IMG/VR virus record: IMGVR_UViG_3300025467_000007
Coordinates: 96,127-160,126 of that record
Source of the DNA: a virus
Reading direction: 5' to 3' (one strand)
DNA length: 64,000 nt
Of the stretch, positions 24,047 through 49,308 are shown in pieces. The position numbers and the translations under genes are program-made. The notes under the pieces were generated by a model that saw only the letters and a program-made list of their open reading frames with translations, ran no database searches and was not told the DNA's origin. The stretch's first letter is position 1. Each line of letters starts with the position of its first letter.

Positions 24047-24539
24047 CTTTTTCTCTTAACCTAAATGTTTGTATTAGTCCTGAGTCAAACGAATGAAACA
24101 GCCATGGTCTAAACATCACGCCTTGTCCTGGTTTTAATAAGTAGTTTATCGTTAAGTCCCATGCAAATAAATCTCTGTAAGGTAACTCATGCCCTTCTAA
24201 TGCGTTCTTTGGACCTTTCAAGCTCTCGTATACGTTGAAGGTACTGTTATCAAGAGCTACAGCAAACACCCATTCATTTAGTGTATCAAAGCCCTCAAAG
24301 TGTATGAATAAGCTAGGATACCTAAACCTACCCGAGTATTCCTCTAACACTTCTACCTCTGCACCTAGTATAGCACTAAACTGTTCGTTGGCATCAGGCG
24401 CTATCAGGTAAAATTCTGGTATCTCCTTACCAAACTCTGACTCTTTGTACTGGAGATCTCGCACACAGTTATGCATCTGTGTCGCTTGGTCCTGATTAAA
24501 GAACCCGTCTATAGTAACGATCTTGACCAGAGGATGCAT
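24027..24539 (-). CDS. DSBH-type (cupin/oxygenase-like) small protein between propellers
   Basis: 170 aa. Strands with F-I-H80-F-E82 and later W-L-F-H149-S-F and F-R160-L-R are spaced like the metal and co-substrate residues of a double-stranded beta-helix, and K-P-G-Q-G-V-M-F-R-P is a typical turn. The H-x-E (not H-x-D) makes an oxygenase possible but uncertain. The gene lies between two RCC1 propellers, overlapping one by 20 bases and the other by TAATG. It may modify or chaperone the propeller. Confidence 0.55.
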   Translation of the reverse strand: MHPLVKIVTIDGFFNQDQATQMHNCVRDLQYKESEFGKEIPEFYLIAPDANEQFSAILGAEVEVLEEYSGRFRYPSLFIHFEGFDTLNEWVFAVALDNSTFNVYESLKGPKNALEGHELPYRDLFAWDLTINYLLKPGQGVMFRPWLFHSFDSGLIQTFRLREKDGKEPN

Positions 24540-26388: not shown

Positions 26389-27591
26389 TTAACTTGATGG
26401 GTATAGTTTTCCTGCTTCGTAGAAGAATACGGCTGCTGTATACACTCCACCCGCCACCTGTTTCCAGTTAGTACCGCCAGCAATAGTCTGGATAGGACTG
26501 GATTTACTGACTAGAGTGTTGTCGCCTAGGTAACCTTGGGCGTTATTTCCCCAGATCCATAGTGTACCATCGGTCTTGATAGCTGCTGTAGCACCAAGAT
26601 TAGCCACCTGTTTCCAGTTAGTACCACCAGCAACAGTTTGCACAGGACTGGATTTATCGACTACAGTATTGTCACCTAGTTGACCAACGATGTTATATCC
26701 CCAGATCCATAGTGTACCGTCCGTCTTGATAGCTGCTATATTATAGCCTCCACCTGCCAACTGTTTCCAGTTAGTACCACTAGCAACAGTCTGGACAGGA
26801 CTGGATTTATTGACTATAGTGTTGTCACCTAATTGGCCATTGGAGTTCTGTCCCCAGGTCCATAGTGTACCATCTGTCTTGATAGCTGCTATATAAGAGA
26901 TTCCACTTACCACCTGTTTCCAGTTAGTACCGCCAGCAATAGTCTGGATAGGACTAGATCTATGGGTTATACTAGTACCATCACCTAGTTGACCTTGTTG
27001 GTTCCATCCCCAGGTCCATAGTGTACCATCTGTCTTGATAGCTGCTGTATTAGTATATCCACAACCCACCTGTTTCCAGTTAGTACCACCAGCAACAGTC
27101 TGGACAGGGCTGGATTTTAGGCTTGCAGTATTGTCACCTAGTTGACCATATAAGTTATGTCCCCAGGTCCATAGTGTACCATCTGTCTTGATAGCTGCTG
27201 TATGATATTGTCCACCTGCCACCTGTTTCCAGTTAGTACCACCAGAAACAGTTTGGATAGGACTAGATCTATGGGTTATACTAGAACCATCACCTAGTGC
27301 ACCATAGGTGTTACGTCCCCAGGTCCATAGCGTACCATCTGTCTTGATACATGCTATATGATAGTTTCCACCCGCCACTAGTTTCCAGTTAGTACCACCA
27401 GCAACAGTTTGCACAGGACTGGATTTATCGGCTGCATTAGTAAGTGCTGCAGTATTGTCACCTAGTTGACCATAGGTGTTACGTCCCCAGGTCCACAGTG
27501 TTCCAGTCGCAGCGTACTGGTCGATCATAGCATAGTCGGTGACGAATAGCTGTTCTAGGTCGCCTTGACGGCTTTGGAATTGTCCGGCCAT
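26389..27591 (-). CDS. RCC1-repeat beta-propeller, copy 1
   Basis: 400 aa, seven RCC1 blades. Blade 1 contains a longer loop (D-N-T-A-A-L-T-N-A-A-D-K before S-S-P), others carry I-T-H-R, S-L-K, I-V-N-K, V-V-D-K or L-V-S-K. A short N-terminal segment (about 30 aa) with D-L-E-Q-L-F-V-T-D-Y may attach it to the virion. It has the longest upstream gap (142 bases) with an exact late box, so it probably leads the propeller group of late genes. It is likely a virion adhesin. Confidence 0.85.
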   Translation of the reverse strand: MAGQFQSRQGDLEQLFVTDYAMIDQYAATGTLWTWGRNTYGQLGDNTAALTNAADKSSPVQTVAGGTNWKLVAGGNYHIACIKTDGTLWTWGRNTYGALGDGSSITHRSSPIQTVSGGTNWKQVAGGQYHTAAIKTDGTLWTWGHNLYGQLGDNTASLKSSPVQTVAGGTNWKQVGCGYTNTAAIKTDGTLWTWGWNQQGQLGDGTSITHRSSPIQTIAGGTNWKQVVSGISYIAAIKTDGTLWTWGQNSNGQLGDNTIVNKSSPVQTVASGTNWKQLAGGGYNIAAIKTDGTLWIWGYNIVGQLGDNTVVDKSSPVQTVAGGTNWKQVANLGATAAIKTDGTLWIWGNNAQGYLGDNTLVSKSSPIQTIAGGTNWKQVAGGVYTAAVFFYEAGKLYPSS

Positions 27592-31843: not shown

Positions 31844-34800
31844 TTATTTATCTATCTTTTTAGATAGCTCATCTATTTGTTTTTGTTGTTCTTTGATAGC
31901 GTTGATTAGGAAACCAAACAAGCCGTTGTAGTTAACTGACTTATTACCAGCATCGTCTGTCGTTACGAGGTCTGGTATCACTTCTTCAAGCTCTTGAGCA
32001 ATAACACCGTAAGACTTCATGCCGTTGTTTTTCCATTGGAACTCAACACCGTTTAACTGTGTTATAGTATCAGCAGCGTTCTTGATCTTCTTGATGTTCT
32101 TTTTCTTACGCTTATCTGATAGAGAGTTGAATATCGTAGCGTTGATAGTACCAGTAGATGGGTTAAAGTATAATCCAGCGCTTGCAGTGTATGCAGTAGA
32201 GAAAGTACCAGATGTCGCAGATGACATAACTGGATAGTATGGACCAGCTGACGCATTATCATTAGTGATCGTAGCACCACCACCTGATGCAGATAATGCA
32301 ACACCGTTAAGATATATGCTACTGAAGTAACCAGCTTGTGAAGACATAGAACCGGTAGCACCAACAAAGCCTGTGGCACCTGTTGCACCAGTAACTAAAG
32401 CAGGACCAGTAATATTACCAGTTGCAGTGATAGATCCTGTAGCTCCTACTGTCGCAGTTCCAACTCCTAATGAACCTAGTATGTATACAGCACCAGTCGC
32501 GCCTGTAGCACCAGTAAGTGTACCAAATTGTGCAGTAAATGCTGAGTTATATGCTGTAGATTGTGTTCCTGCAGGACCAGTAGCACCGTTAGTTCCTGCA
32601 GGACCAGTGGCACCGTTAGTTCCTGCTGTACCTGTAGCTCCGTTAGTTCCGTTAGTTCCTGCAGGACCAGTGGCACCGTTAGTTCCTGCTGTACCTGTAG
32701 CTCCGTTAGTTCCGTTAGTTCCTGCAGGACCAGTGGCACCGTTAGTTCCTGCAGGACCAGTAGCACCTGCAGCGCCAGATGCGCCAGTAACTGATACACC
32801 ACCAACAGTTAGTGTATTAAAGTATCCTGATAAACCTGATATAGAGCCAGTAGCTCCAATAAATCCTGTAGCACCTGTTGCACCAGCAACTATGTTTGAT
32901 GATGTTAATATATTAGTAGTAACGCCTGTTGCACCAATCGTACCAACACTTAATGTATTAGTGGTAACACCTGTCGCACCAATAGTTCCAGCAGATAGTG
33001 TTGCGATAGTACCAAGTGATGTTAAGCTTGACGCTGTGATACCAGAACCCAATGTATTTGCACTAAGCACTGACACACCATTGATATAGTATGCTTTGTT
33101 TGTACCAGATAAGTTCCAGTTTTCTGAAGCATTCCAGTAACCAGTGTTTGTTCCACCAGTAGTAGCTGATGATTGCCAGATTAATGTCTTATCTGCTGTA
33201 CCATGTAATGTTATACCACCGCCTGCTGCTGTAGTATCTGTAGGTGTTGTTACTTTACCAAGCTCAACGTTTATATCATTAACGGTTAGAGTAGTTGTAT
33301 TGATTGTAGTAGTTGTACCATTAACTGTAAGGTTACCAGTAACCACTGCATTACCACCAACGTTAAGATCACCTGAGGCATTAATAGAACCTGTTGCACC
33401 AGTAGCTCCTGTGCCAATTTCAAGAGTTTGCAGTGCTGCGTTAGTGGATACTAATGTATTTGTTGTAACACCTGTTGCACCGACTGTGAATGCTGTCAAT
33501 GCACCAGTAGCACCAAGTGTTGTAGATCCAACTGCAAGACCACCACCATGTGCAGCTCCACCGCTTGATACGATAGAACCTGTAGCACCAAGTGTTGTAG
33601 ATCCAACTGCAAGACCACCACCATGTGCAGCTCCACCGCTTGATACGATAGAACCTGTAGCGCCAACAGTTCCTCCACCAACGTTTAGTGGAGCGTTCAT
33701 GTTGATGGCACCAGATGCACCGATAACCATCGCCGCTGTAGATAAGCTATTAATTACAAAGTAGATAGCATTAGATCCGTATGTACCGATAGCTAGGTCT
33801 TGTGACTGTGAACCTAAGTATGCTATACCAGGATTACTGAATATACCTGTACCAGAGAACGTTGGTGAGTTGATACCAAGCTCTGCATAGTTAGTTGAGT
33901 TTGTAGCAAGTGCATTTGATACAACGAAGTTCGTTGATGCATTAGCTGTGTTGCTTGTATTTTGTAAAAGTAGTTGGTTATAGTTATCGACTGATGATGA
34001 CCATGAACCCATGATGTTACCATCTGCATAGTTTAGTGTACCGTATGCAAACGCACCTTGTGTGCCTGATGCACCTATAGATGCTGTCGCTACATGTGTA
34101 GGTGCAGAGAATATACCTGTGCTTGGAGTAAATGAGTATGTAGTTGCAAGATAGCCGTTAGGCATCGGGCCAGTAGCACCTGTCATGACTGGATAGTATG
34201 TTACACCAGTCGCACCTAATCCAATACTACCGATGATACCTGTTGCGCCAGTGGCACCATTTATTCCTGCTGTACCGGTCGCACCAGTTGCACCATTTAT
34301 CCCTGCTGTACCTGTAGCACCATTAGTTCCGTTGGTTCCTGCTGGACCAGTGGCACCTGTTGCACCATTGATACCTGTCGAACCTGACGCACCTTGTGAA
34401 CCATTAGTTCCTGCTGGACCGGTTGCACCAGTCGCTCCACTAATACCTGTCGAACCTGATGCACCTTGCACACCTTGAATACCTTGGATACCTTGAGGAC
34501 CTGTAGCTCCTGTATTACCGGTAACACCAGTCGCACCATTAGTTCCTGCAGAACCAGTCGCACCGTTTGTTCCTGCAGAACCAGTCGCACCGTTTGTACC
34601 TGCACTTCCAGTTGCACCTGCAGTCCCTGTTGCACCGTTTGTACCGTTAATTCCTGCAGAACCAGTCGCACCGTTTGTTCCTGCTGTACCTGTGGCGCCT
34701 GTTAAACCCGTTAATCCTGTAGCACCTTGTACACCTTGAACTCCAGTAGCTCCGGTTAATCCAGTAGAACCTGATGCACCTTGTACACCTTGAGAACCTG

Positions 34801-35872
34801 TAGCACCGCTTGCACCTTGTACACCTTGAGAACCTGTAGCACCGCTTGCACCTTGGATACCTTGAGAACCTGTTGCACCACTAATACCGGTGGCACCTGT
34901 TAAACCAGTAGAACCTGAAGCACCTTGCGTTCCTGATACTATACCAAGGAATAACTGGTGATCATTTGCAAAGTTGCTTGTTCCTGTACCTCCGCTAGAT
35001 ACTAAGGTTACAGGTATATCGTACCAGCTATTAGTACCGCTTGTTTGGTTTGTTACTGTCCCTGATATTGTCCATATCTGGTAGTTATTAGACAAATTTG
35101 CATCTTGAATGATGAACTCTTGACCTTGTTGAAGCAAAGCAAGATAGATGTCGATGTCAATAGCATTAGTAGAACCACCACTTATAGTGTCTTCTGTTAG
35201 GTGACTGACCCAGATGTTTGTTGAACTTATCTGTGTAGAGTTATTCCATACGATGTATCCATCACCAACGTATGTAGAACCGCTTTGAGTCGTTGTCTTT
35301 GCTTGATAGTTGAATATACTGTTTGATTGGCCTGCTGCACCTTGAGAACCTGTGGCTCCAGTATAACCAGTAGCACCAGTTAATCCTGTACCAGTGGCAC
35401 CGGTTAAACCTGTAGAACCTGAAGCACCTTGAATACCTTGAGCACCTGTTGCACCGGTTAAACCTGTAGAACCTGAAGCACCTTGAATACCTTGAGCACC
35501 TGTTGCACCGGTTAAACCTGTAGAACCTGAAGCACCTTGAATACCTTGAGTGCCTGTTGCACCAGTATAACCAGTCGCACCAGTTAAACCAGTACTTCCA
35601 CTTGCTCCTTGAATACCTTGAGAACCTGTAGCTCCTGTTAAACCTGTGGAACCACTAGCACCTTGAACACCGCTTGCACCTTGAACACCTGTAGCACCAG
35701 TATTACCTGTGACTCCAGTTGCTCCTGTTAAACCTGTTGAGCCTGATGCACCTTGAAGAGTTCCGGTCGCGCCGATCCAATTACCGTATTGGTCGATGAC
35801 GTCGACGATGCCTGAGGCACCACCAACGGATAGTCCGTTCTTGATGACGAACGATTTATTGCTTGTAGACAC
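31844..35872 (-). CDS. Collagen-like tail fibre with peptidase S74 chaperone
   Basis: 1342 aa. N-terminal cap ([14 protein letters not shown], then G-N-W-I-G) shared with two other fibres. Long Gly-X-Y tracts (G-A-T, G-A-S, G-L-T repeats) span about 40-560 and 1060-1200, separated by beta-rich segments. The C-terminus (1252-1342) is an S74 intramolecular chaperone beginning S-D-K-R-K-K-K-N-I and containing [14 protein letters not shown]. It helps trimerise the fibre and then cuts itself off. The family Ser-Lys arrangement at the cut is present, so release should work. An internal 75-base tandem duplication lies at 33511-33660. Confidence 0.92.
32588..32776 (-). repeat. Tandem 63-base repeat in collagen-like tract
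   Basis: The unit starting GTTAGTTCCTGCAGG (plus-strand reading) recurs at 32588, 32651 and 32714, encoding near-identical 21-residue blocks of Gly-X-Y (N-G-A-T-G-P-A-G-T). The conserved DNA suggests recent expansion by recombination or slippage. Confidence 0.8.
33511..33660 (-). repeat. Exact or near-exact 75-base tandem duplication
   Basis: Two adjacent copies (33511-33585, 33586-33660) encode [15 protein letters not shown] followed by [10 protein letters not shown], so the frame is kept. It lies outside the pure Gly-X-Y tract, in a beta-rich part of the fibre. Confidence 0.8.
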
Positions 35873-35911
35873 GGTTCATTTTCCCCAGTGTTTATGTGTA
35901 TATGTTATTTA

Positions 35912-38900
35912 TTAGTACCCGTATGTGATCTTATCTAAATCTGTCCTTGATTGGAAGTTACCAGATACGATGTTCACTATCAATGTACTGCCATCCCATG
36001 ATACTATTGTACCAGCTGCAGGGTTTTGTGGACCTATGCCAGCAGAATCAACTGTGATCTCTGTGCCGACCAATGAAGCGAAGTCGATTAAGTTAGACCA
36101 GTATGTATCTGGGTATAAGTATGCTTTACCTAATGGTATCGCGCCGTTATCAGAGTTATTTAATGAGTAGAATAAGTTTAATCCGCTTGGGTCATCAACA
36201 GTTGTTCCACCGATACGACCTTGTACAGACTCTCTTACCCAACTAATCGCTGTGCCAGAAGATGTTGGAGTTACCTTCAATGATATCACTGAACCGTTTG
36301 TTACTGCTGTTACATCCATGACTTTCGTAGCTTTATCTGATCTTAATGTCGCATACTCAGTCATGTAAACTGCAGACGCATTTTGTGTTAAGATAACTTC
36401 TGTAGCTTGTACTTTGTTTGTTGTGCTAACACCTTGTACGATATACTTAGCTGTACCAACTTCGTTAGCAGCAAACATATCTACTGTTGTTTGTGATGTG
36501 CCAGATAATCCTGTTGAACCGTTTGCTAGGCTGTAACCTTGTAGACCTGTGTAACCTTGATCACCGTCAGGACCAGTAGCACCTGAAGCACCAGTAATAC
36601 CAGTAGCACCATCTAAACCGGTTTCACCTTGTATACCTTGGTCTCCGTCTAAACCTGTTTGACCTTGTTCACCAGTTACACCTGAAGCACCTTGTACACC
36701 AGTAGCACCAGTTGAACCTGTATAACCTTGTTCACCGAAAGCACCAGTTGCACCTTTATATCCATTAATACCTGTGGCACCATCTTGACCTGTTACACCT
36801 GATGCACCTTCCATACCGACTGCACCGTCAAGGTTAACATAAAGTGTATCAACTCCTGGAGTACTGTTACCTACTTCTGTTACGATAGTAATATTAATAG
36901 TACCAGTAATATTATCATAACTGTTTACTAAAGCTGTAGCAAAGTTCTCTGAATCTTTAGAGATGATGATAGTTTGACCAGCAGCATATGAATATGAGTA
37001 GTCAAGTGTTTGTGAATCTATTTGTATATTGATATCACCACTTACATTGATATTTACACCGTTATCAATGTAGTAGTCAGTGTTAAGTAATATTGCTTTG
37101 AATCTATGACCATATGAACCAGTTGCACCATCAGTACCAGTCTCACCTGTTGGACCTGATGCACCATCGATACCTTGTACACCAGTAGCACCTGTTGCAC
37201 CGTCTTGACCTGTAGGACCAGTCGCTGCGTCATAACCTAAGATACCTTGTTGACCGTCTGGACCTGTTGGACCTTGTACACCTGTAGCACCTGTCTCACC
37301 AGTTTGACCTTGATCACCAGTTATACCGATTCCGCCATCGATACCAGTTGCACCGTCTTGACCTGTTGGACCTGATGCACCATCAATGCCTTGGTTACCG
37401 TCTGGACCAGTAGCACCTGTTGCACCAGTTGAACCTGTGTAACCTATGTTAGTTGCAGCTGTATTACCTAAATATGTGTATCCACTTGGAACATCATGTT
37501 GTGGAGTAGTTATTAATTCAAACACAGCACCATCGAGTGTGCTTACTGCTGGATAACTATGCGATTGAGCTAATAAGAATGGTGAACCGTTAGTATTAGT
37601 TGCTGGATCACCGCCTTTTGACCATGCTCCACCGTTAACTCTTGCCCAAAATACTCCTGTATTATAATTATAATTAACTGCAACTTCTACTAAATCTCCA
37701 ACGCCCCAATTAATACCTAATGAATCAGTTTGGATACCATTTATCCAAACAGTACCATCTTGTTGGAATCCTTGCGATTGGTCATCATATCTTCCTAATG
37801 CATTATTAACATCAATGCCAGATGTTCCTAAGCCAATGCGATTAGTAGTAGCAGGTATATCAGCATCTAACCTTACACCAAACATACTTAAACCAGAGTT
37901 AGCGTATGTTGCCATTTCAGCAGTAGTTATTGCTGATTCAACATAACCAACTGTACCACTTAATATTGTATTTGCGCCGTTACTGCCGCTTGAAATTGTT
38001 TGATTAGGCCCATAATGACCATAACCAGTATCAAATTGAATTGCAGCTGATGAACCATCACCACCTTGAGCACCAGTAGCACCAGTATAACCTGTTGCAC
38101 CATCTACACCTGTGTAACCTTGTTCGCCATCAGGACCTGTTGCACCATCTAAACCTGTTGAACCTTGGATACCATCAGCACCAGAAGCTCCGTCTATACC
38201 AGCTTCACCAGTTGCACCTTGAAATCCTCGTTCACCTGTAGCACCAGCAACACCAGTTGCACCAGTTAAACCTACTGTACCTGTAGCACCATCAGCACCA
38301 GTTGCACCTCTGGCATTATATGTACGACCTTGCAATCCTCGTTCGCCATCGATACCTTGTGCGCCGTCTTGACCGGTAACACCAGTAGCACCAATTTGAC
38401 CTACTGCTCCGTCAAGGTTGATTACCCATGCGTTATGTGAACCAGTACCTACGTGATCTGTTTGTGTAAATGCAAGGATGTTTGTTACTGGATCGTAACT
38501 TGTAACTGTACCATGTTGATGTATACCACCACCATCGGTAAGAATAATTGTTTCACCACCACCATAACTTAATCTTTCATCTACGACTACAACTCCTGTA
38601 GCACCTGTAGATGCAAGTGTAAATGCAGTGGTTGAAGAAGTTTTGTATCTGTGACCATATGAACCAGTTGCACCAACTTCACCTGTTTGACCTGTTGCAC
38701 CTATGTAACCAGCATTTCCTGTTACACCACGACGTAAGAATGTGAATCCGCTTGGAACACCGTATTCAGCAACATCATTGATAGTAAATTGTGCAGGACC
38801 ATTAGAACCATAGATACCTACTGCTGGATAAACACCAGCACTAAATACAGAATTATCAACTGATAAACCGCCAACACCAGTAGCTGGATCATTAGAGATA

Positions 38901-40021
38901 TTACCATTCCAGTAACCATTGTTTACTCTGAACCATATTAAATGGTTATCAGTGTCTACAGCTATATCAATCTTGTCTCCACTAGTATAGCTATCATAAT
39001 GAGTTACATATGAACCAGCATAATAGATATCACCGTTTTGCGTATAAGCTATGGAGTTTTCATCAGGACCACCAAGCATAGCATTAAGATCAACATTACT
39101 GTTTGCGATACCAACTGAATTAGCGTTGTCACTAAAGTAATCGAAGGTAAAGCTGAACATGTAAGCATTGCCGCCGGCAATGTTTTGAGTACCTAGCGCA
39201 TTATAGTAACCTTCGTTATCATCTGAAATTGTGAAGTAGTCGTCATTTGGGTAATATAACTGACTACCGATATAAGCTGGATCGAATACGTATGTGTTTG
39301 CAATGTAACCACCGAATCCACCTGTAGCACCATCAAGACCTGTTGGACCTTGATCACCTGTTACACCTTGAACACCAGTAGCACCGTCATAACCTTGTGC
39401 ACCATCTTGACCAGTTACACCTTGAGAACCTGTAGCACCTTGGGCGCCTGTTGCTCCTGTAGCACCTGTCTCACCAGTTGGGCCAGTTGCACCTGCATAA
39501 CCTGTATTTGTAGCAGCGCTATATCCTGTAATTGTGATTGTTGCATTTACTGGAATATCACCTAAAGTTATAGGTGTGTTTGTTAAACCTAAGAAAGATA
39601 TATCACCTTGATCTACATAATTATAAACTGTGTATGTAACTGAGTTATATACAAACGTCATTCCTGGTGCAGGAGTAGCTGATAGCGCTCTACCATCAAT
39701 ACGAATGTAGCTACCGTAGAGCGTTGGATATACTAACCAAGCGTTATCTAATGCAGCTGTTACAGTTGCATCGATTGATACATATGTACCACCATTACCG
39801 CCTGTAGCACCTGTTTGACCAGTTACACCAGAAGCACCATCAATACCGGTAGCACCAGTAGATCCTGTCTCTCCTCTAACACCTGTTGCACCGTATGGTG
39901 ATTCACCTGGACCAGAAGCTCCGACCCATTCACCAGCTGTGTTGATGACCTCAAATCCAGAGGCACCGACCGCTAGTCCGTTCTTGACGTTAAACTTTAT
40001 ATCATTGGTTGGTAGTGACAC
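35912..40021 (-). CDS. Collagen-like tail fibre with two SPRY-like lectin domains
   Basis: 1369 aa. N-terminal cap [13 protein letters not shown], then alternating Gly-X-Y tracts and globular domains. Two domains (about residues 240-430 and 680-870) contain S-V-G-I-A-N-S / R-I-G-L-G-T-S, a Gly-Asp strand such as [10 protein letters not shown] or [10 protein letters not shown], and [10 protein letters not shown] / [10 protein letters not shown]. This is the pattern of SPRY or concanavalin-like sugar-binding folds. Two further domains end in [10 protein letters not shown]. The C-terminal domain (T-A-K-Y-I-V-Q, T-E-V-I-L, T-E-Y-A) is shared with the next two fibres. Probably a receptor-binding fibre. 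Confidence 0.88.
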
Positions 40022-40049
40022 GTGCCTATCTCCTGAATTTTATTTGTTA

Positions 40050-42326
40050 TTAAGCTAGTACTGCTTCTCTTAAGAAGTCGATTGTTGTGTTTGTATTTAC
40101 TGGTGATACTTTAACGTATACTGTACCAGAGTCATAGTTTGCACTTACAGTCATTAGAGACGCTGTTGAGTACATCGTTGCATACTCTGTAACTGAAGCA
40201 TCTGAACCATCATGCGTTACCAATACTTCTGTTGAGTGTACATCGCTACCATGTGTAGCTTGGATGATATACTTAGCTGTCCTGTAAACTGTAGCATCAT
40301 ATGAATCGATAGTTTGGTTAGCAACTGTAGTTGTTAATGGATCGTTTCCTGCAGTTAAACCTGTACCTGTAGCACCAGTTAAACCTGTTGAACCACTTGC
40401 ACCTTGGTAACCAGTAGCTCCATCTAATCCTTGAGGACCTGTTGCTCCTGTGAAACCTGAAGCACCTTGGATACCAGTTGCACCAGTATAACCTGTTGCA
40501 CCAGTATAACCAGTCGCACCATCTACACCTTGAGGACCTGTTGCACCAGTGAAACCTGTAGCACCTGATGCACCTTGGAAACCAGTGGCACCTGAAGCAC
40601 CATCGATACCTGTTGCACCTGTGTAACCAGTTGCACCTTGAACACCTTGTGCACCATCAAGGTTAACTGTCCATGCTGTATGTTCACCTGAACCAACTGC
40701 TGTTGTCTTGTCGAATACTAATTGGTCACCGCTGTAACTTACAACTGTACCTAATTGATAATTTGTATCATCGTAAGCAACTACGATTGATTGAGCTGGA
40801 GTATAAGCTAAACCAGAATCAACTGTTAATGTGATTTGACCAGTTCCGCCGATAGTGAATCTTGAAGTTGATGATGTTGCATAGAGGTCACCGTTAGCAC
40901 CGCTAGCACCAGCAATACCTGTTGCACCTGTGTAACCAGTTGCACCATCGATACCTGTAGCACCTGAAGCGCCGTCAATACCAGTTGCACCAGTATAACC
41001 GGTTGCACCATCGATACCTGAAGCACCGTCAATACCTGTCGCACCTGTGTAACCTGTAGCACCATCGATACCAGTTGCACCTGTATAACCTGTAGCACCA
41101 GTATAACCTGTCGCGCCACTTGCACCGTCGATACCTGTAGCACCTGTATAACCTGTTGCACCATCGATACCAGTTGCGCCTGAAGCACCTTGATATCCTT
41201 GTACACCATCGTTACCTTGAGCACCTGTTGCACCACTTGCACCTACTGGACCAGTAGCACCTGTATCACCAGTATAACCTGTAGCGCCGTCAGCACCAGT
41301 TGCACCTGAAGCTCCTTGAATACCTGTCGCACCGCTTGCACCATCAGCACCGGTTGCACCAGAAGCACCATCAATGCCTGTTGCACCGCTAGCACCTTGA
41401 AAACCAGTAGCACCTGATGCACCTTGATCTCCTTGAGAACCGGTTGCACCTGTGTAACCAGTGGCGCCTGAAGCACCTTGGAAACCTGTAGCACCTGATG
41501 CACCATCGGCACCTGTAGCACCGCTTGCACCTTGAATACCTGTTGCACCTGTATAACCTGTAGCACCTTGAACACCGACAGCACCATCAAGGTTTACTGT
41601 CCATGCTGTATATTGTGTGCCTGTTGCATGATCTGCGGTTGTGATGATTAAATCTAATTGACCAGTACCTGAATTGTAGTTATCTACATAACCGATTACA
41701 TAATCGGTAGGATTAGTTTGAGAAGCAACTAATACTGATTGTTGTGGAGTATATGAAAGACCAGTTTCTACATTAATTGTTAATGTAACACCAAGAGCGT
41801 AGTCTGTAAGTGTTAATGGATCAGTTGAGGTTGTTGCGTATTTGTCACCGTTAAGACCGGCAGAACCTGTTGCACCTGTTTGACCAGTTGCACCTGTATA
41901 ACCTGTAGCACCTGATGCACCATCGATACCAGTTGCACCAGTATAACCTGTAGCACCTGTGTAACCTGTTGCGCCGTCAATACCTGTTGCACCTGTAACA
42001 CCAGTAGCACCTGTATAACCTGTAGCACCATCTATACCAGTTGCACCACTTGCACCATCAATACCAGTAGCACCTGTATAACCTGTGGCACCATCAGCAC
42101 CCGTGGCACCTGATGCACCATCGATACCGGTTGCACCGGTATAACCGGTTGCACCGTCAATACCTTGGACACCTGTTGCACCTGTGTAACCTGTGGCACC
42201 TGTAGCTCCAGCAGGAAGTTCGGCTCCTATCCAATTACCGTTTTCGTCAATGACGTCAATTATGCCTGACGCACCCCCTACGGATAGCCCGTTTCTTACT
42301 ACAAAAGTTGAATTATTCGTTGCCAC
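40050..42326 (-). CDS. Collagen-like tail fibre
   Basis: 758 aa. N-terminal cap [20 protein letters not shown] almost the same as the S74 fibre. Very long runs of G-A-T, G-Y-T, G-I-D, G-A-S triplets follow, broken by two beta domains that both end W-T-V-N-L-D-G-A. The C-terminal roughly 100 residues form the shared domain ([22 protein letters not shown]). Many Thr residues occupy the third position of the triplets. Preceded by an exact late box at 42368-42375. Confidence 0.9.
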
Positions 42327-42367
42327 AGTTTGATCTCCTTGATGATGGTGTTAGTGCTTTATACTAT

Positions 42368-42375
42368 TATTTATA
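42368..42375 (-). promoter_or_regulatory. T4-type late promoter box before fibre gene
   Basis: TATAAATA on the minus strand, 42 bases upstream of the ATG of the 758-aa collagen-like fibre. Confidence 0.75.
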
Positions 42376-42385
42376 ATAAATTTAT

Positions 42386-43990
42386 TTAGAGTCCTATCGT
42401 AGTTCTTATGTATTTTATATCAGTATAAGGACTTTGGGGCGTAAATCTTAACTCAATATAGCCTGTCCCAGACCATTGAATACGTGATACTATTAATAAA
42501 GGTGATCTACTTTCAACAGTAGATGCTACGTATACACCTGGGCTAGTCATGATAAACTTACTACTAAGAGTCGCTGATATAGCTCCTCCATTTAATGATA
42601 TTACTGTTGTAGGTATTGCTGATAGTAATGCTTGTACTGCTGAATTTGATGTAGAGTATATAGTTAATGTTGTTCCAGTCCAGAACGACAGAGCCGAAAT
42701 GTTGATATCTGGTGATGAATAGTCATTATCTACAGGTGAGTAATACGTAGCGAATGATCCTAATGATTCACCCATACCTGCATACTCTGTAAAGAATACG
42801 TTTGCTTTATCCCATAAGAGTAATAACTCTTCAGCATAGTAGTTTGTACCTTTTGTCAGCTGTACCTGATACTTTGCACTCCTATATATTGAGGTATCTA
42901 AGATGTCTATTAGCTGTTCATCTGTTGTGTTATTGGTGGTAAAGTCAATTACGTTGTCTACACCAATACCAGATGCACCTACAGGACCTTCGATACCTGT
43001 TGCACCTGTAATACCTATAGGTCCAGTAGCACCAGTCGCTCCAGCACCCTGTGCACCTGTGGCACCGTATGGACCAGTAGCACCTGGTAAACCTACTCCA
43101 GTTGCTCCTGCAATACCGCTTGCTCCTTGTGTACCAGAAGCACCTTGAATTCCAGTAGCACCTGTTTGACCTGTGGCACCTTGTGTACCTGTCGCTCCAG
43201 TTAAACCTGTTGAACCACTTGCACCTTGAATTCCAGTAGCACCTGTTTGACCTGTGGCACCTTGTGTACCTGTCGCTCCATCCAAACCAATAGTACCAGA
43301 AGCACCATCGATACCACTAGCTCCTTGTGGACCAGTAGCACCTGTTGCACCAGAACCTGATGCTGTTGCAGATATAGTTAATGATTGTGGGTTTGCTGAA
43401 TGATCTGTTGTGATGGTGATACCAGTACCACCAATGATATGTAGTGTATCTTCTGCTACAGCTACGAGGTCTGTCTGACCGTCTACTTTGATAGTCTTGA
43501 ACGCAGAACCAAGACTTACTTTAACTTCACCGCCACCAAGATCTGATACGTTGAATCCTGTATCCCTATCGAACCTTAGAGCGTTTACACCTGTTACTTC
43601 GTTAGTGATTGATCCTGTAGCACCACCAGTTGCACCACTGATGTTACTTACCGTGATGTTTGCAACACCAACACCGCTCGCACCAGTTACACCGCTTGCA
43701 CCTTGTGCACCGCTGGCTCCGATACCAGATGCACCTTGTGTACCTATTGCACCGCTTGCACCTTGAATGCCTTGTTGACCTTGTGCACCTGATGCACCAA
43801 TACCTGAAGCGCCTTGTTCTCCTTTAGGACCTGTAGCACCGCTTGCACCCTGTGGGCCTGATGCACCACCTGTATCTCCCTGTGGGCCTGTTGCACCAGT
43901 AGGACCGGTAGCACCAAAGCCAGCACCGTTACCTGATAGCCCTTGTATACCAACGGCCGCGACTTCTACGTATACGTCTCCTAATGCCAT
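42386..43990 (-). CDS. Collagen-like fibre protein
   Basis: 534 aa. The N-terminus ([11 protein letters not shown]) differs from the other fibres, so it probably attaches elsewhere. Gly-X-Y tracts at about 20-115 and 215-330 flank a beta segment with [16 protein letters not shown]. The C-terminal 200 residues contain the shared domain ([23 protein letters not shown]) and a longer insert. An 81-base direct repeat lies in the collagen part at 43141-43281. Confidence 0.88.
43141..43281 (-). repeat. 81-base-period direct repeat in collagen tract
   Basis: A stretch of about 60 bases beginning CACCTTGAATTCCAG (plus strand) at 43141 recurs at 43222, coding the same Gly-X-Y block ([13 protein letters not shown]) in frame. 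Confidence 0.75.
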
Positions 43991-43999
43991 TCTTATTCC

Positions 44000-44353
44000 T
44001 TATATGATCTCTGGAGGATCAGATTGCGTTATTTGTGGTGTGAATATAATAACACCTTCTGAGACTCTTAATGATTCTCCAAAAGGTGATGTCACGTATA
44101 CATCATACATGTATCTTCCAGGTTTAATCGATGCAGTATCAGCTGCAGACAATGATAGTCTTACTTGTCCACCTGTAGTAGAGTATACTTCAGCATGAAA
44201 GTCAATATGATTATGAGCTATATAAGACTTACGTATGTAAGCCCGAGTAGTAAAACCCGATAAGTTTAGTGGCAGTCCGTCTGAACCCACCACAGTGATT
44301 ACTGCACCAAAGTTTGATCCAGTGTCAATATAAAAATTTGTTATAGCTGCCAT
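44000..44353 (-). CDS. Small Ig-like virion protein
   Basis: 117 aa. Pattern of a beta sandwich: F-Y-I-D-T-G-S-N-F, V-V-G-S-D-G-L-P-L-N-L-S-G, R-A-Y-I-R-K-S, V-R-L-S-L-S-A-A-D-T, P-G-R-Y-M-Y-D-V-Y-V-T. The S-L-S-A-A-x-T-x-x-I-x-P-G-x-Y-x-Y-D-V segment is typical of Ig-like baseplate upper proteins in several phages. It lies between the maturase gene and the collagen fibres. The start ATG lies only about six bases after an exact late box, so its mRNA might be leaderless. Confidence 0.75.
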   Translation of the reverse strand: MAAITNFYIDTGSNFGAVITVVGSDGLPLNLSGFTTRAYIRKSYIAHNHIDFHAEVYSTTGGQVRLSLSAADTASIKPGRYMYDVYVTSPFGESLRVSEGVIIFTPQITQSDPPEII

Positions 44354-44381: not shown

Positions 44382-45758
44382 TTAAATTGGTTGTATGCTT
44401 ATAATCTTCTTACCAGTCTTAGGTTCTGGTATCCCTTTTACAGCTCCGATGATGTCTTTTCTAGACTCATCAAGGTCTCCGTCAATATAGTATGGGAGAC
44501 ATCCTGTTAACATCTCAAACGCAGCCATGAAGAACGGTATGTTATCAGAGTAAGCGTTATCACATGCTAGGCTCCACATATCTCCATGTAAAAACATGCA
44601 TGAACCTTGACATATCTGTAATACTGGACATGTAGGACACTCTTCTCTATGACTCCAGTGTGTACTAGTCTTTAACTTGATGTTGTCAAAGTCATTAACG
44701 TTACCGATAAGGTGACTCTCACCATTAAATCCTATAGCTACAGAGCTAACGTTTTGACATGTTAGCACGTTACCTTTTAAATCTACTGCAATATTGTGTT
44801 CATCATCCATCGTACACTTCTGACCTACAGCAACAGCTGGTCTTTTGGTTTGTATAGATGTTATGAACTCGTTGATCTTCTTCTTAGTGGCACCAACATT
44901 AGTTCCAAGTCCACTTCTTACTTCTTTAAACGTATTAGCTCGATAGTTAAGGTGATCGTGTTCATCAGTAAAACAAACGCTAGCACCACCTTCATCATAT
45001 GGATCAATGAACCCACCTTCTCCGATAGGTACATCAAACCCAAGTTTATCTTTAAACCATTGACTTATGGCTGCACGGCTTTGGTTATCTTTATTCACCA
45101 TAGCGTTAAAGCTCATACGATTCTTTGGTCCTAACCTATTCCATAGATCCATGATCATCGCGAATTGTTCTGGATCATCGAATGGGTCTAACCCTCTAAC
45201 ATGATAACCTGGTCCATCATGTGATATACCAACACTAAACCCTAAGTTATCAAGCCATTCATTCTTTTCTAAGTCTAATATAGTACCATTAGTCACTATA
45301 CCAAATGCTATGTTTGGATACATCTTCCTCATGCCTTCAGCAAGAGGCTTTAGACTCTTCCAATATACAAAGGGCTCACCACCCCAAAATTCTACTTTAA
45401 CTCCAGTACCGTCTTTATTATCACCACCATCAAACCATGTTGGTAGTTGATCTAAGAACGGACCTACATCATCCTTTGTCATCTCATCAGCTTTAGGTAC
45501 AAACCTTTGACTGCAGTAGACACATTCATAATTACAAGATAAGCCTAGCTGTATCTTGAGGATCTTAATATCTTTACTCTTTTTTGCTGGAGTGTCTTTA
45601 CTTGTAGTAAACACTTCTTTATAGGAACGAGTATTACCGTTACTAAAATCTATCACGTTTCCATTTGCATCTGATATCTCAGAAGTCATGTTATCATACC
45701 AAAACTCTACATCTTCATTTGTTACAGGTCTCACACATTTTATATTAAACTTCGCCAT
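44382..45758 (-). CDS. Radical SAM/SPASM peptide maturase
   Basis: 458 aa. N-terminal about 60 residues are unassigned. The radical SAM site is C75-x3-C79-x2-C82 in L-S-C-N-Y-E-C-V-Y-C, followed by W-G-G-E-P at 125-129 for SAM binding. The C-terminal SPASM domain is complete: C315-x13-G-x4-C334, then C374-x2-C377-x5-C383-x3-C387 and C399, which should bind two auxiliary Fe4S4 clusters. Such enzymes modify peptides or proteins (thioether links as in sactipeptides or ranthipeptides, or formylglycine in sulfatases). Three genes upstream in the same operon encode proteins with Cys-rich tails. No sulfatase is present, so those tails are the best candidate substrates (inference). Confidence 0.92.
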   Translation of the reverse strand: MAKFNIKCVRPVTNEDVEFWYDNMTSEISDANGNVIDFSNGNTRSYKEVFTTSKDTPAKKSKDIKILKIQLGLSCNYECVYCSQRFVPKADEMTKDDVGPFLDQLPTWFDGGDNKDGTGVKVEFWGGEPFVYWKSLKPLAEGMRKMYPNIAFGIVTNGTILDLEKNEWLDNLGFSVGISHDGPGYHVRGLDPFDDPEQFAMIMDLWNRLGPKNRMSFNAMVNKDNQSRAAISQWFKDKLGFDVPIGEGGFIDPYDEGGASVCFTDEHDHLNYRANTFKEVRSGLGTNVGATKKKINEFITSIQTKRPAVAVGQKCTMDDEHNIAVDLKGNVLTCQNVSSVAIGFNGESHLIGNVNDFDNIKLKTSTHWSHREECPTCPVLQICQGSCMFLHGDMWSLACDNAYSDNIPFFMAAFEMLTGCLPYYIDGDLDESRKDIIGAVKGIPEPKTGKKIISIQPI

Positions 45759-45778
45759 TTCATGTCCTTAATTATAAA

Positions 45779-46423
45779 TTATAATGTAACGTAATTCCTT
45801 ACAGATTCAACAACCTTTATGTTAGTAACTAATGCAATAGTATCAACGCTTCCTAAGTTAACTTCAGTAGTATGGAATATTGAAGAAGGATGTATAGTAA
45901 ATGTTCCTAGTACAGGACTTATTGGGAATAACATCTCATGATTCAATAATCTACTTCTTGAAGAAATAGGATCGATTATGTGTAACCTATTTCCTGCAGG
46001 TTTTTGATGAGTATTATTATTTGGAAAGTCTGTGACTTCCATAGATACCCATAAAACTGCCACGTAGTCAACGCTTCTATGATTGTGAGGCTTTGCATAC
46101 TCACCAGGAGCAAACTTACGTAAGCTAGTGATAGCTTCAAACTCTACTTCTTCTGGATTAATAAAACCTTCAGCTGCAGCTAACTGAGCCATCCTAGATT
46201 TTAACATACTTTTAAATAGCTGGCATTCTGGACGAGGATCAGCTAGTAAGTTATAAGCTGCCTCTTTTGACTTACGCATATAATAAGGGACATGAGCCTC
46301 AGGATGCTGAGCTTCATATTCTTCACCAATACTAATAATATTCTTTAAAAAATCATCAGTAGCTTCAACCGCTCTTTGTTCAATAAGAATATTGGTTGGC
46401 CATAGTTGTGCAATATTAGTCAA
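45779..46423 (-). CDS. 2OG-Fe(II) oxygenase-like protein
   Basis: 214 aa. L-R-K-F-A-P-G-E-Y-A-K-P-H113-N-H115-R, then V-D-Y-V-A-V-L-W-V-S, and F-T-I-H-P-S-S-I-F-H184-T-T-E-V follow the layout of the putative 2OG-FeII_Oxy_5 family often found in T4-like marine phages, with an H-x-H site in place of H-x-D. The function is unknown. It lies 20 bases before the radical SAM gene and overlaps the preceding gene by 8 bases, so the two oxidative enzymes are co-expressed. Hydroxylation of a fibre protein is a possibility, not shown. Confidence 0.75.
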   Translation of the reverse strand: MTNIAQLWPTNILIEQRAVEATDDFLKNIISIGEEYEAQHPEAHVPYYMRKSKEAAYNLLADPRPECQLFKSMLKSRMAQLAAAEGFINPEEVEFEAITSLRKFAPGEYAKPHNHRSVDYVAVLWVSMEVTDFPNNNTHQKPAGNRLHIIDPISSRSRLLNHEMLFPISPVLGTFTIHPSSIFHTTEVNLGSVDTIALVTNIKVVESVRNYVTL

Positions 46424-47192
46424 GTGTTACTACCTTAGTAGATACGCCAGTCCAGTATTTGTATCCAGTTTTAATTGTTACTACTTCACCAGCATTTAAT
46501 CCAGTAGTGTCTAAGTTAAATGTACCACCATTCGTTACACGTGATCTATTAATTACACCAATATCAGATGAAAGATAAACCGTAGTGTTTGCTGGAGCCG
46601 TCACTGTATATGCATGTGTATCACCAGCTTTAATAGTACTTGGTCCATTAACTATGATAGGTAACCATGATTCTAAGAATGCATGCATCGATACTATAGA
46701 TGTAGATGAAGGAGCTGATCCGTTAACTGTGATGTTTGCACCATCTCTAAATATGATAGTTAGTTCGCTGGTAGGACAATCCTTATATGGTGTTAAGATA
46801 TACAAGTAACCATATGAAGAGTATCTACTGTTGATAACTGACCATGGTGAACCTGGATATGTTTTACCTTCTGCCGCTGGTGTCACATCAGTTTTTTGAT
46901 AGATCATACCTGGATCACCTCCGCCCTTTTCACTTAATGAAAGTTGTGTAGTCTCCATAGCCATGAATTCTTGAGTATCTGGGATATGCATTGCTTTTGG
47001 AAACAACGCGATACATCCATGATCCTGAGAATATTTTTGTACTAGTTCTGCTAGATTGAATGTACCAACAGCATTGGTTGTTCCAATTGCAGTAACAGTA
47101 GTATCAGAAATCTCCAATGTCAAGATATCATTTTTGATAGTGACATCGTTTTTTGATAACGTTCTTGTTGTACTTAGTGAGTAAAAATTCAT
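46416..47192 (-). CDS. Structural protein with C-terminal Ig-like domain
   Basis: 258 aa. Residues 1-70 are beta-rich without a recognised family. The middle has Y-G-Y-L-Y-I-L-T-P-Y-K-D-C-P. The last 85 residues (G-P-S-T-I-K-A-G-D-T-H-A-Y-T-V-T-A-P and the repeated N-G-G-T-F-N-L-D-T) look like a bacterial Ig-like beta sandwich. It probably belongs to the fibre or tip. It sits between the Asn-Cys-tailed proteins and the two oxidative enzymes, and may be part of the complex they modify. Confidence 0.7.
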   Translation of the reverse strand: MNFYSLSTTRTLSKNDVTIKNDILTLEISDTTVTAIGTTNAVGTFNLAELVQKYSQDHGCIALFPKAMHIPDTQEFMAMETTQLSLSEKGGGDPGMIYQKTDVTPAAEGKTYPGSPWSVINSRYSSYGYLYILTPYKDCPTSELTIIFRDGANITVNGSAPSSTSIVSMHAFLESWLPIIVNGPSTIKAGDTHAYTVTAPANTTVYLSSDIGVINRSRVTNGGTFNLDTTGLNAGEVVTIKTGYKYWTGVSTKVVTLD

Positions 47193-47216
47193 TGTTTTTT
47201 CCTTTTTATCTATTTA

Positions 47217-47582
47217 TTAGCAATTACATGCACAGTTACAGTTATAGTTTTGTAAAGTTAAAGCTCCGGAAGCACCAGTAGCACCGTTCCAATATAATCC
47301 CCAAACTCCACTTGTAAGGTGACCTACTCCTCCTCTTCCGCTACCGCATGCGCTAATAACACCACTGTTAAGGTTATCACCGCTTATGAGGTTTCCAGCT
47401 GATAAGAATGGTCCATAGTTACCAAGATCATTAGTAAACTGACTTAGTGCTGTTGGTCTTCCAACTATACCTGTGGCTCCTGTAGCGCCTGATGCACCTA
47501 CAGTGCCCCATACAAATGATGCTGTACTTAAAGTAGTACCATCACCAAATTTTATATCACCATTTTCTAATATCGTTGCCAT
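47217..47582 (-). CDS. Asn-Cys-tailed small fibre-like protein 3
   Basis: 121 aa. N-terminus A-T-I-L-E-N-G-D-I-K-F-G-D-G-T-T-L-S-T-A, a short Gly-X-Y run ([10 protein letters not shown]), then A-L-S-Q-F-T-N-D-L-G-N-Y-G-P-F. The same blocks occur in the next two genes. It ends N-Y-N-C-N-C-A-C-N-C with four Cys alternating with Asn or Ala. The N-terminal blocks are typical of phage fibre tips. The Cys tail is the unusual part and the possible target of the nearby radical SAM enzyme. Confidence 0.8.
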   Translation of the reverse strand: MATILENGDIKFGDGTTLSTASFVWGTVGASGATGATGIVGRPTALSQFTNDLGNYGPFLSAGNLISGDNLNSGVISACGSGRGGVGHLTSGVWGLYWNGATGASGALTLQNYNCNCACNC

Positions 47583-47591
47583 TTATTATCC

Positions 47592-48095
47592 TTAGCAGTT
47601 ACAGTTGCAATTACAATTATTAGCATTGATTGACAAAGTTGTACCATTCCAGTTTAAGTGTCTTGGACCATATTCATTATATGCATAGTAACCTGATAAT
47701 GTCATCTGATAAAGTTTTGTACTAGCTAAATTTTGTGAAACGCTGACCACATATACTCCAGTACCTCCTGTAGCGCCTGAAGTCTGTGATACAAAATATG
47801 TACCGTTTGCAACACCAACACCGTTTAATGCATTAGGACCAAGATTATTGCCGATAGCTATGCTACCAGATATGATACTTGTTACAGTTAGATTGGTTCC
47901 TGATATACTTCCAATAAAAACTGCAGCATGACTTAAATTATCAATTGTAATAAATGGATAGTAGTTGCCAAGATTATTAGTAAACTGACTAAGATTAGTA
48001 GGAGCACTAGTTAATTGTGATTGTGTAACATTTGCAGAAGATAGTGTGGTGTTATCTCCAAAAACTAATGATCCATTTGTTATTTTTGTTGACAT
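47592..48095 (-). CDS. Asn-Cys-tailed small fibre-like protein 2
   Basis: 167 aa. Same opening (N-G-S-L-V-F-G-D-N-T-T-L-S-S-A and N-L-S-Q-F-T-N-N-L-G-N-Y), a longer middle beta region with G-A-T-G-G-T-G-V-Y-V, and the end N-A-N-N-C-N-C-N-C-N-C. The Asn-Cys pairs use mixed codons (AAT/AAC, TGT/TGC), so the pattern is held at protein level. Other than the tail there is no Cys in the protein. Confidence 0.82.
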   Translation of the reverse strand: MSTKITNGSLVFGDNTTLSSANVTQSQLTSAPTNLSQFTNNLGNYYPFITIDNLSHAAVFIGSISGTNLTVTSIISGSIAIGNNLGPNALNGVGVANGTYFVSQTSGATGGTGVYVVSVSQNLASTKLYQMTLSGYYAYNEYGPRHLNWNGTTLSINANNCNCNCNC

Positions 48096-48103
48096 CTATT
48101 ATC

Positions 48104-48388
48104 CTAACAATTACAGTTACAGTTACAGTTGCAATTACCATCAGTTATCAATGTTAAATTGCCCGCACTGTTTACTCCAACACCTATATTAGCAAAAGCA
48201 CCAGTACTGTACGCGGTAGTATCTACACCTGTGACAGGGAAAAAACCACCATAGTTACCCAAGTCATTAGTAAATTGACTAAGGTTTGTTTTTTTGTTTG
48301 TTATATTTGCATATGGTAAATTAGCGCTACTTAGTGATGTGTTATCACCAAATGTTATATTACCATTACCTATCTTAGTTGTTGCCAT
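48104..48388 (-). CDS. Asn-Cys-tailed small fibre-like protein 1
   Basis: 94 aa, the shortest of the three. N-G-N-I-T-F-G-D-N-T-S-L-S-S-A, then N-L-S-Q-F-T-N-D-L-G-N-Y-G-G-F, and a short middle, ending I-T-D-G followed by five Asn-Cys pairs. No other Cys is present. It follows the S74 fibre by eight bases. Such a protein (leader-like conserved front, variable middle, Cys-rich end) looks like a precursor for modification or a metal-binding tip. Confidence 0.82.
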   Translation of the reverse strand: MATTKIGNGNITFGDNTSLSSANLPYANITNKKTNLSQFTNDLGNYGGFFPVTGVDTTAYSTGAFANIGVGVNSAGNLTLITDGNCNCNCNCNC

Positions 48389-48396
48389 CTTTTATC

Positions 48397-49308
48397 CTAG
48401 TTACCTTTTAAAGAGTTAACTTCTGCTCTTAATTCTTTGATAGCTTCGATCAACAGTGGTACTAATCTTTCATATCGTACGGTTAAGTACTGTGTATCTA
48501 CTGGAGCGTCTGTAACGATCTCTGGTAGTACTGCTTGAACTTCTTGTGCAGATACGCCAACTTCCCTCTTAACAGCAAAACCTAAAGCTTGAGCTGATTC
48601 ATTAGCTTCATAGTAGAAGCCAGATAAAGCATCAACCTTATCAAGTGCATTTTCTATACCACCTAACTTTGTCTTTAATCTTTCGTCTGAGTAGTATGAT
48701 GTGATTTGGTTTGTAGCACGGATCTCACCGACAGTACCAGATGCAGTTGTACCAACACCAAGGCTGCTATATTGTATATTTGATGAACTACCAGGAATAT
48801 CAAACCCTGTAGCTCCAGTAACTCTACCTGCGGTATCAACTGTAATTCCTGGGATAACTGTAGCAGAACCGTATGTTGCAGCAGAAATACCAGTCGTAGT
48901 AAGCTTAGAACTTGGGATACTTCCAGCTAACATGGTAGCTGTCACTGTACCAGTATCTGTAGTATACACACCGTTTGTAACTGTACCAGCATTACCTGAT
49001 ACACTACCTGTGACGTTACCTGTTAAGTTTGCTGTGATGACGTTTGCAGCAAAGTTACCAGATCCATCCCTCTGTACGATCGTGTTTACTGTACTAGTAG
49101 TGGCGGGTAAGTAACCATGAAGCTTATCAGCGTCAAGCCCTGAACCAGAACCATCTACTGTTTCTAATTTAGTTAATATATCAGATGCTGTATAAGCTGA
49201 TGCGAGCAACCTTGTACCAATATCTGTACTCAGATTGGTAAAGTTAGTATCCATCTCAGTGTTTGTTAAAGGTGCACCTTTTACTGATCTAAGCGTTAGT
49301 GTTGTCAT
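48397..49308 (-). CDS. Fibre protein with peptidase S74 chaperone domain
   Basis: 303 aa. N-terminus L-R-S-V-K-G-A-P-L-T-N-T-E-M-D-T-N-F-T-N, a common cap of marine phage fibres. The middle is a beta repeat region with G-N-V-T-G-S-V-S-G-N. The S74 domain (207-303) begins S-D-E-R-L-K-T-K-L and has V-G-V-S-A-Q-E-V-Q-A-V-L-P-E-I. The chaperone assembles the trimer and is then cleaved off. Overlaps the small gene upstream by 20 bases. Confidence 0.9.
   Translation of the reverse strand: MTTLTLRSVKGAPLTNTEMDTNFTNLSTDIGTRLLASAYTASDILTKLETVDGSGSGLDADKLHGYLPATTSTVNTIVQRDGSGNFAANVITANLTGNVTGSVSGNAGTVTNGVYTTDTGTVTATMLAGSIPSSKLTTTGISAATYGSATVIPGITVDTAGRVTGATGFDIPGSSSNIQYSSLGVGTTASGTVGEIRATNQITSYYSDERLKTKLGGIENALDKVDALSGFYYEANESAQALGFAVKREVGVSAQEVQAVLPEIVTDAPVDTQYLTVRYERLVPLLIEAIKELRAEVNSLKGN

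Follow-up and report, generated by a model that had tools for sequence, protein, structure and literature searches.

What does a radical S-adenosylmethionine (SAM) enzyme do among the tail genes of a phage? The question is raised by positions 44,382–48,388 of the window, the 64,000-nucleotide stretch analysed here, which is the final 64 kb of the 160,126-base virus record IMGVR_UViG_3300025467_000007. A radical SAM/SPASM enzyme is encoded there in one operon with three small proteins (NC1, NC2 and NC3) that share their fronts and end in alternating Asn and Cys residues (NC tails), as a sequence-only reading of the window had recorded and as we find again. Our preferred answer, to which we give a probability of about 0.7, is that the enzyme is a maturase of phage fibre tips and acts on the NC tails, most likely by forming thioether cross-links. 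Judged from sequence, the pairing of enzyme and tail is a dedicated one, set in a fibre context, with recurrent partner genes and with CteB-type ligation of the enzyme's clusters.

Pairing of the enzyme with Asn-Cys tails

We searched 2.9 million viral contigs with a DNA pattern for NCNC.CNC-stop, made without reference to the enzyme. It matched 98 stretches, with the motif in frame with the stop in 85; the other 13, which end in TGG instead of a stop, were all out-of-frame noise and were rejected. Ten of the in-frame matches sit only in open reading frames (ORFs) of 8–36 residues, leaving 75 credible NC-tailed loci; no full-length enzyme was found near these ten, one of whose contigs has a weak partial match (23 bits). 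An enzyme of the window's family is present on the contig of 60 of the 75 credible loci, nearby on the same strand in 51 (at −0.25 to 3.8 kb, negative values being overlaps of open frames) and elsewhere on the contig in 9. In the remaining 15 the contig runs on for no more than 1.6 kb past the tail (2.4 kb in one case), too little to show an enzyme. A degeneracy-matched (DC)n control pattern gave one match, out of frame, and a (KC)n pattern gave 32; no enzyme was found in the surrounding DNA examined for either control, which rules out chance or composition as the source of the pairing.

The pairing was also examined from the enzyme side, with a profile built from 24 enzymes and run on the viral contigs and on GTDB genomes. 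The best 80 loci were taken from each profile scan, so the sample leans toward closer relatives, and some clusters entered via the NC scan. Clustering at 90% identity gave 155 enzyme clusters, of which 126 have at least 3 kb of upstream DNA. By a strict rule (a regular expression), an NC-rich, mostly fibre-like protein lies beside the enzyme in 113 of the 126, for homologues down to ~30% identity; the viral contigs are fragments, and these cluster counts are not counts of phylogenetically independent events. Beyond the 113, an NC-rich protein was recognised on inspection in three loci (L183, L191 and L193), and Cys repeats of other kinds were seen in two (L189 and L279). Loci reached only through the GTDB scan, which is blind to the NC pattern, have an NC protein almost as regularly. 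The bacterial loci with the system, which include Limnohabitans, Burkholderia MSh1, Rhodobacteraceae and Magnetospirillum, are probably prophages. The sequence-only reading had named homologues regularly found without Cys-tailed proteins as the observation that would speak against a link; no such regularity appears in these clusters, and the association that it had described in a single phage structural operon recurs in both scans.

The tails themselves point to the protein as the level at which selection acts. Across 117 distinct tails, Asn accounts for 70% of the residues that precede a Cys and for ~90% of those before the first two Cys; Ala, Asp, Val, Gln and Arg precede later ones. Synonymous codons are mixed inside each window tail and in 101 of the 117 family tails, which argues for selection on the protein and rules out a DNA microsatellite as the source of (NC)n. 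The segment ahead of the tail often has additional NC dipeptides.

The proteins that carry the tails look like fibres. Targets range from 80 to 690 residues across the family; many are fibre-like proteins of 300–690 residues, and the bodies of the larger ones match tail-fibre families. In the window, NC2 weakly matches tail fibre families (phrog_38233, 1e-9), and a tblastn search with the small NC1 protein against phage records gave no matches. The fronts of NC1, NC2 and NC3 have FGD.T.LS.A and T.LSQFTN(D/N)LGNY in common. Because the LSQF.N(D/N)LGNY module is also found shortly ahead of the tail in full-length relatives, the three small proteins look like the final segment of a fibre encoded alone.

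The shared front had been taken as leader-like, and the locus as a sactipeptide or ranthipeptide cluster; neither proposal survives. No common leader is apparent across the family, in which only the tail is shared, and the front is a fibre module limited to closer relatives, which rules it out as a family-wide leader of a ribosomally synthesized and post-translationally modified peptide (RiPP). The cluster assignment fails on fibre-like targets with unrelated fronts, on the immunoglobulin (Ig)-like and 2-oxoglutarate (2OG) oxygenase genes that lie between, on the lack of a protease or exporter between the genes, and on an enzyme model in which no RiPP recognition element (RRE) is seen. We consider it highly improbable that the product is a secreted RiPP bacteriocin, accompanying the phage without being part of the virion. 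Such clusters do usually look like this, with duplicated small proteins, Cys-tailed, next to a SPASM enzyme, but the NC tail of most relatives stands at the end of a fibre-like protein of 300–690 residues, and no exporter or peptidase was noted between the genes in the loci examined.

Two side observations concern the edges of these scans. A 36-residue ORF ending CFICNCNCNCNCNCNC occurs in three contigs without an enzyme (L028, L043 and L057) and is probably not a gene. Campylobacter phage CP220 and its relatives (L326, 2650–3444 and 6028–7131) have two radical SAM genes, distant kin of the window enzyme, near baseplate genes; no Cys-rich tail was found within 6 kb of these genes, and for this reason the phages are not counted as members.

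The enzyme and the proposed tail chemistry

The window enzyme has the SAM-cluster site C75xxxC79xxC82 and the canonical seven SPASM Cys, C315-GX4C334-C374X2C377X5C383X3C387-C399, so that the complete Cys sets ascribed to it by the sequence-only reading are indeed there. It belongs to the radical SAM superfamily (Pfam Radical_SAM PF04055, 31.2 bits against a cut-off of 29.5) and to the SPASM group (NCBIfam TIGR04085, 33.9 bits against 27), and it matches phrog_1802 (2e-68). In an alignment of 46 diverse members, with 28–71% identity to the window enzyme, exactly ten Cys are invariant in 46/46, three of the radical SAM site and seven of SPASM. The first SPASM spacing here is 18, slightly above the textbook CX9-15GX4C. 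None of the 46 has a Cys between C315 and C334, which leaves auxiliary cluster I (AuxI) with three Cys ligands; by sequence this is the arrangement of AlbA, RumMC2 and CteB rather than that of anSME. The residue after the GX4C cysteine, a catalytic Asp in anSME, is Gln in 42 of the 46. In anSME the clusters are fully ligated, AlbA has seven SPASM Cys, and the open AuxI of CteB binds a substrate Cys in the structure (PMC6231123); AuxI of RumMC2 has three Cys (PMC8172795).

The AlphaFold2 (AF2) model of the enzyme is confident (predicted local distance difference test score, pLDDT, 94.6), and its nearest solved folds are anSME (the top Foldseek match), TigE, CteB, ChlB, SkfB and SuiB. That top match, together with the annotation of the homologue in Achromobacter phage JWF as anSME, would fit an anSME-type oxidase whose conversion of tail Cys to formylglycine would supply reactive aldehydes for covalent adhesion. 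We regard this as very unlikely: the eighth SPASM Cys is missing in all 46 aligned enzymes, 42 of these have Gln where anSME has Asp behind the GX4C cysteine, and the anSME score is 42 against a cut-off of 349. Epimerisation is somewhat less remote, though still unlikely. Here the enzyme would invert alternate tail residues from L to D, and (NC)n would form a beta-helical needle of alternating chirality free of cross-links. The strict two-residue periodicity of the tails suits this idea, and the distant structural relatives of the enzyme include an epimerase, EpeE/YydG; yet epimerases rank under anSME, TigE and CteB in both sequence and fold, and epimerisation leaves the invariant Cys and the preferred Asn neighbour without a reason.

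We favour a maturase that cross-links the tail. That the NC tail is the substrate seems to us very probable; that the product is a thioether is an evenly balanced judgement. Enteropeptins are thiomorpholine-containing sactionine peptides, and enteropeptin thiomorpholines link adjacent residues. Sactionines between Cys and Asn are known from ruminococcin C1 (Cys3-Asn16) and thurincin H (Cys13-Asn19; PMC8172795).

In the mechanism that we propose, the enzyme would recognise the C-terminal tail of the fibre-tip proteins, with its alternating Cys each usually after Asn, in the cytoplasm and ahead of assembly. It would take hydrogen from tail residues while one tail Cys sits on AuxI, and S-C bonds would be formed repeatedly along the tail, as intramolecular thioethers from a Cys sulfur to a carbon of a neighbouring residue, with a change of −2 Da per Cys used. 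The resulting tip would be rigid and resistant to oxidation and proteases, and may serve adsorption or stability. The Ig-like protein would probably serve as an adaptor or as a partner at the tip, a second modification might come from the 2OG oxygenase in those phages that have it, and the Hint domain that stands behind the tail in some phages would remove itself, exposing the tail.

Several points weigh against this proposal. Its support is computational, from sequence and model, and an open AuxI is insufficient alone to prove thioether formation. Similarity to known thioether enzymes is low: no curated NCBIfam maturase cut-off is reached, the best score being 59.6 against 400 (geopeptide), with PapB at 56.7 against 340. 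No RRE was seen in the model, which covers the enzyme only: ahead of residue 95 it contains just three strands without any helix, and so lacks an N-terminal winged helix. About eight enzyme clusters have no NC protein in the DNA examined. Lastly, alternating Cys could instead bind metal. Were the tails to hold metals or Fe-S clusters, three fibre chains would stack layers of Cys around metal ions, and the enzyme would act on a residue elsewhere or only in an indirect way. At the tip of a fibre, CxCxC spacing fits three-fold metal sites and resembles the tip of the T4 long tail fibre, where HxH motifs of gp37 hold iron. The T4 tip requires no such enzyme, however, and metal binding leaves the near-perfect linkage to a SPASM enzyme unexplained, so that we consider it quite unlikely.

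Tail architectures, partner genes and the window locus

The tail occurs in three architectures. In the window and in most loci (architecture a), it forms the extreme C-terminus. In architecture b, which does not occur in the window, an intein-like Hint domain follows right behind the tail and its catalytic Cys continues the alternation; this layout is found in Achromobacter phages JWF and 2-1, Burkholderia MSh1, Rhodospirillaceae and others. In the JWF protein the Hint profile PF05203 matches from residue 308 (47.5 against a cut-off of 32.1), and the tail NCNCDCNCNCS is followed by CFPAGT. Ten loci have the tail-then-Hint layout, JWF by profile and nine others by motif. When placed on the enzyme tree, a quick tree with long branches, the Hint label needs four changes, gains or losses, three of which are forced by well-supported branches. 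That a self-cleaving domain has been used repeatedly at exactly this place suggests that it matters for the tail end to be free or newly acylated. In architecture c, the NC-rich region is followed by a further domain starting NCSKIICTKL. In L183 (7465–8388), L192 (2779–3717), L172, L181, L190 and L199–L202, the NC-rich protein runs into a C-terminal domain of ~150 residues (NCSKIICTKLYELG...ADQAFG), possibly an alternative to the Hint domain.

Other Cys repeats accompany additional enzymes. Loci of Boseongicola and Parasutterella (L238, 3–248; L279, 3036–4061) have an additional repeat type, (CSY)n, and in both loci the second of the two radical SAM genes is diverged. Repeats of (CSG)n, which form tails in the Erwinia jumbo phage L004 (4156–4958), are also present in a Salmonella jumbo phage (L329, ~2981–3400), again with two radical SAM genes each, the second one being diverged in L004. 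Second radical SAM genes are otherwise rare (L246, and an edge fragment at L282), and those of L227 and L251 look like split genes. The (CSY)n and (CSG)n loci may be sister systems in which each repeat type has its own enzyme, although the numbers are small. In L189, an ORF ~1.3 kb downstream of the enzyme start has a run, CQCDCVCACECQCDCLC, that precedes a glycine-rich, collagen-like stretch and is not at the C-terminus.

The Ig-like family is present in 92 of the 126 enzyme clusters and the 2OG oxygenase in 71, usually in the order NC protein, Ig-like, oxygenase, radical SAM, or the same without the oxygenase. From this recurrence both genes belong to the system, as had been suspected from the window, with the oxygenase as an optional part. 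The window Ig-like protein has no Pfam match and its Ig label is weak by sequence; its Ig-like C-terminal domain is supported by relatives and by the AF2 model. Foldseek returned only generic Ig folds from the PDB and only uncharacterised phage proteins from BFVD. The oxygenase scores 24 bits in Pfam, just under the cut-off of 27, and is clear in PHROGs (phrog_81, 1.5e-12); His113 and His184 are kept across the family. Since an Ig-like protein accompanies most clusters, the enzyme might modify it or another operon product, with the NC tail a passenger. This is scarcely credible: enzyme-adjacent NC proteins occur without a detected Ig-like gene (for example in L002, L049, L232 and L235), no other component is as constant as the NC protein, and a second repeat type accompanies a second enzyme.

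Genes for sheath, portal and baseplate wedge proteins mark the window as DNA of a contractile-tailed phage, and the system lies between baseplate genes and a run of very long collagen-like fibre genes (Table 1). Transcription would run from the S74-chaperone fibre gene through the three NC-tailed genes and the Ig-like and oxygenase-like genes to the enzyme. Gaps between system genes are 8–24 nt, or the genes overlap shortly; AGGA-type ribosome sites precede most of them, and a terminator search within the system genes gave none above chance level.

Table 1. Genes of the system and its immediate neighbours, in window positions.
Feature	Position	Strand	Details
Fibre protein with C-terminal S74 chaperone (PF13884, 8e-12)	48397..49308	-	context; immediately upstream in operon
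NC1, 94-aa fibre-tip protein, presumed substrate	48104..48388	-	ends NCNCNCNCNC; tail codons 48107-48136
NC2, 167-aa fibre-tip protein, presumed substrate	47592..48095	-	ends NNCNCNCNC; tail codons 47595-47618
NC3, 121-aa fibre-tip protein, presumed substrate	47217..47582	-	ends NCNCACNC (YNCNCACNC-stop); tail codons 47220-47243
Ig-like partner, 258 aa	46416..47192	-	conserved system member
2OG-Fe(II) oxygenase-like, optional system member	45779..46423	-	TTG start; overlaps Ig-like gene
Radical SAM/SPASM enzyme (putative maturase), 458 aa	44382..45758	-	Cys 75, 79, 82 (SAM cluster) and seven SPASM Cys
Beta-sandwich protein akin to L-shaped tail fibre assembly proteins (phrog_3304)	44000..44353	-	context; immediately downstream

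After the system, in the same direction, come four successive collagen-like fibre genes (G-A-T/S-G repeat; 31844–43990) encoding 534–1369 residues. Elsewhere in the structural region, two 400-residue proteins (24539–25747 and 26389–27591) match phage families annotated as regulator of chromosome condensation (RCC1-like repeats).

Relation to known systems

We hold at even odds the broader view of a widespread class of virus maturation, in which a dedicated radical SAM enzyme, one per repeat type, makes a covalently cross-linked (Asn-Cys)n fibre-tip needle and Hint domains have been recruited several times. No description of the system was found in the open full-text literature, which leaves out subscription papers and preprints; searches there for phage with SPASM, tail fibre with radical SAM, and NCNCNC gave nothing relevant, and papers on relatives of JWF leave the radical SAM gene unmentioned. 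If our proposal is true, this would be the first modification of a virion by a radical enzyme as far as the open literature shows, and a new class of maturation; such tip chemistry is so far known mainly from peptide antibiotics. Fibre tips determine which bacteria a phage infects. If radical chemistry has cross-linked them, then in many phages and prophages the end that binds the receptor is misdescribed when only sequence and structure prediction are used, recombinant fibres produced without the enzyme would be wrong, and chemists would gain a new class of SPASM substrate with more than 100 natural repeat variants. Because isolated phages carry the system (Achromobacter JWF and 2-1), direct testing is possible.

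With CteB, AlbA, RumMC2 and PapB the system has in common a radical SAM/SPASM enzyme and a Cys-rich C-terminal target encoded beside it, and with the first three also the seven SPASM Cys and an AuxI with three Cys ligands. In contrast to sactipeptide and ranthipeptide maturases, the target here is a phage fibre with an NC tail, and the enzyme lacks an RRE in its model and scores far under every NCBIfam cut-off. Cluster 59 (PMC9062424), presented as a RiPP pathway, has an Asp-Cys dipeptide repeated up to six times beside a radical SAM/SPASM gene and a recombinase. An X-Cys dipeptide repeat next to such an enzyme is thus common to both; compared by description only, Cluster 59 differs as a three-gene peptide pathway with Asp in place of Asn and with no stated link to phages or fibres. 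Overall fold is shared with anSME, which also acts on protein Cys, whereas the enzyme described here has neither the eighth SPASM Cys nor the Asp after the GX4C cysteine, and no sulfatase target. QhpD, the maturase of quinohemoprotein amine dehydrogenase, is a SPASM enzyme whose cross-links are placed in a structural polypeptide and not in a peptide natural product; its family (NCBIfam TIGR03906) weakly matches the window enzyme, and it differs in target, in enzyme subfamily and in not being viral. The T4 gp37 tip, finally, resembles the NC tails in having ligand residues that alternate at the far end of a tail fibre; in T4 these are His, and no modifying enzyme takes part.

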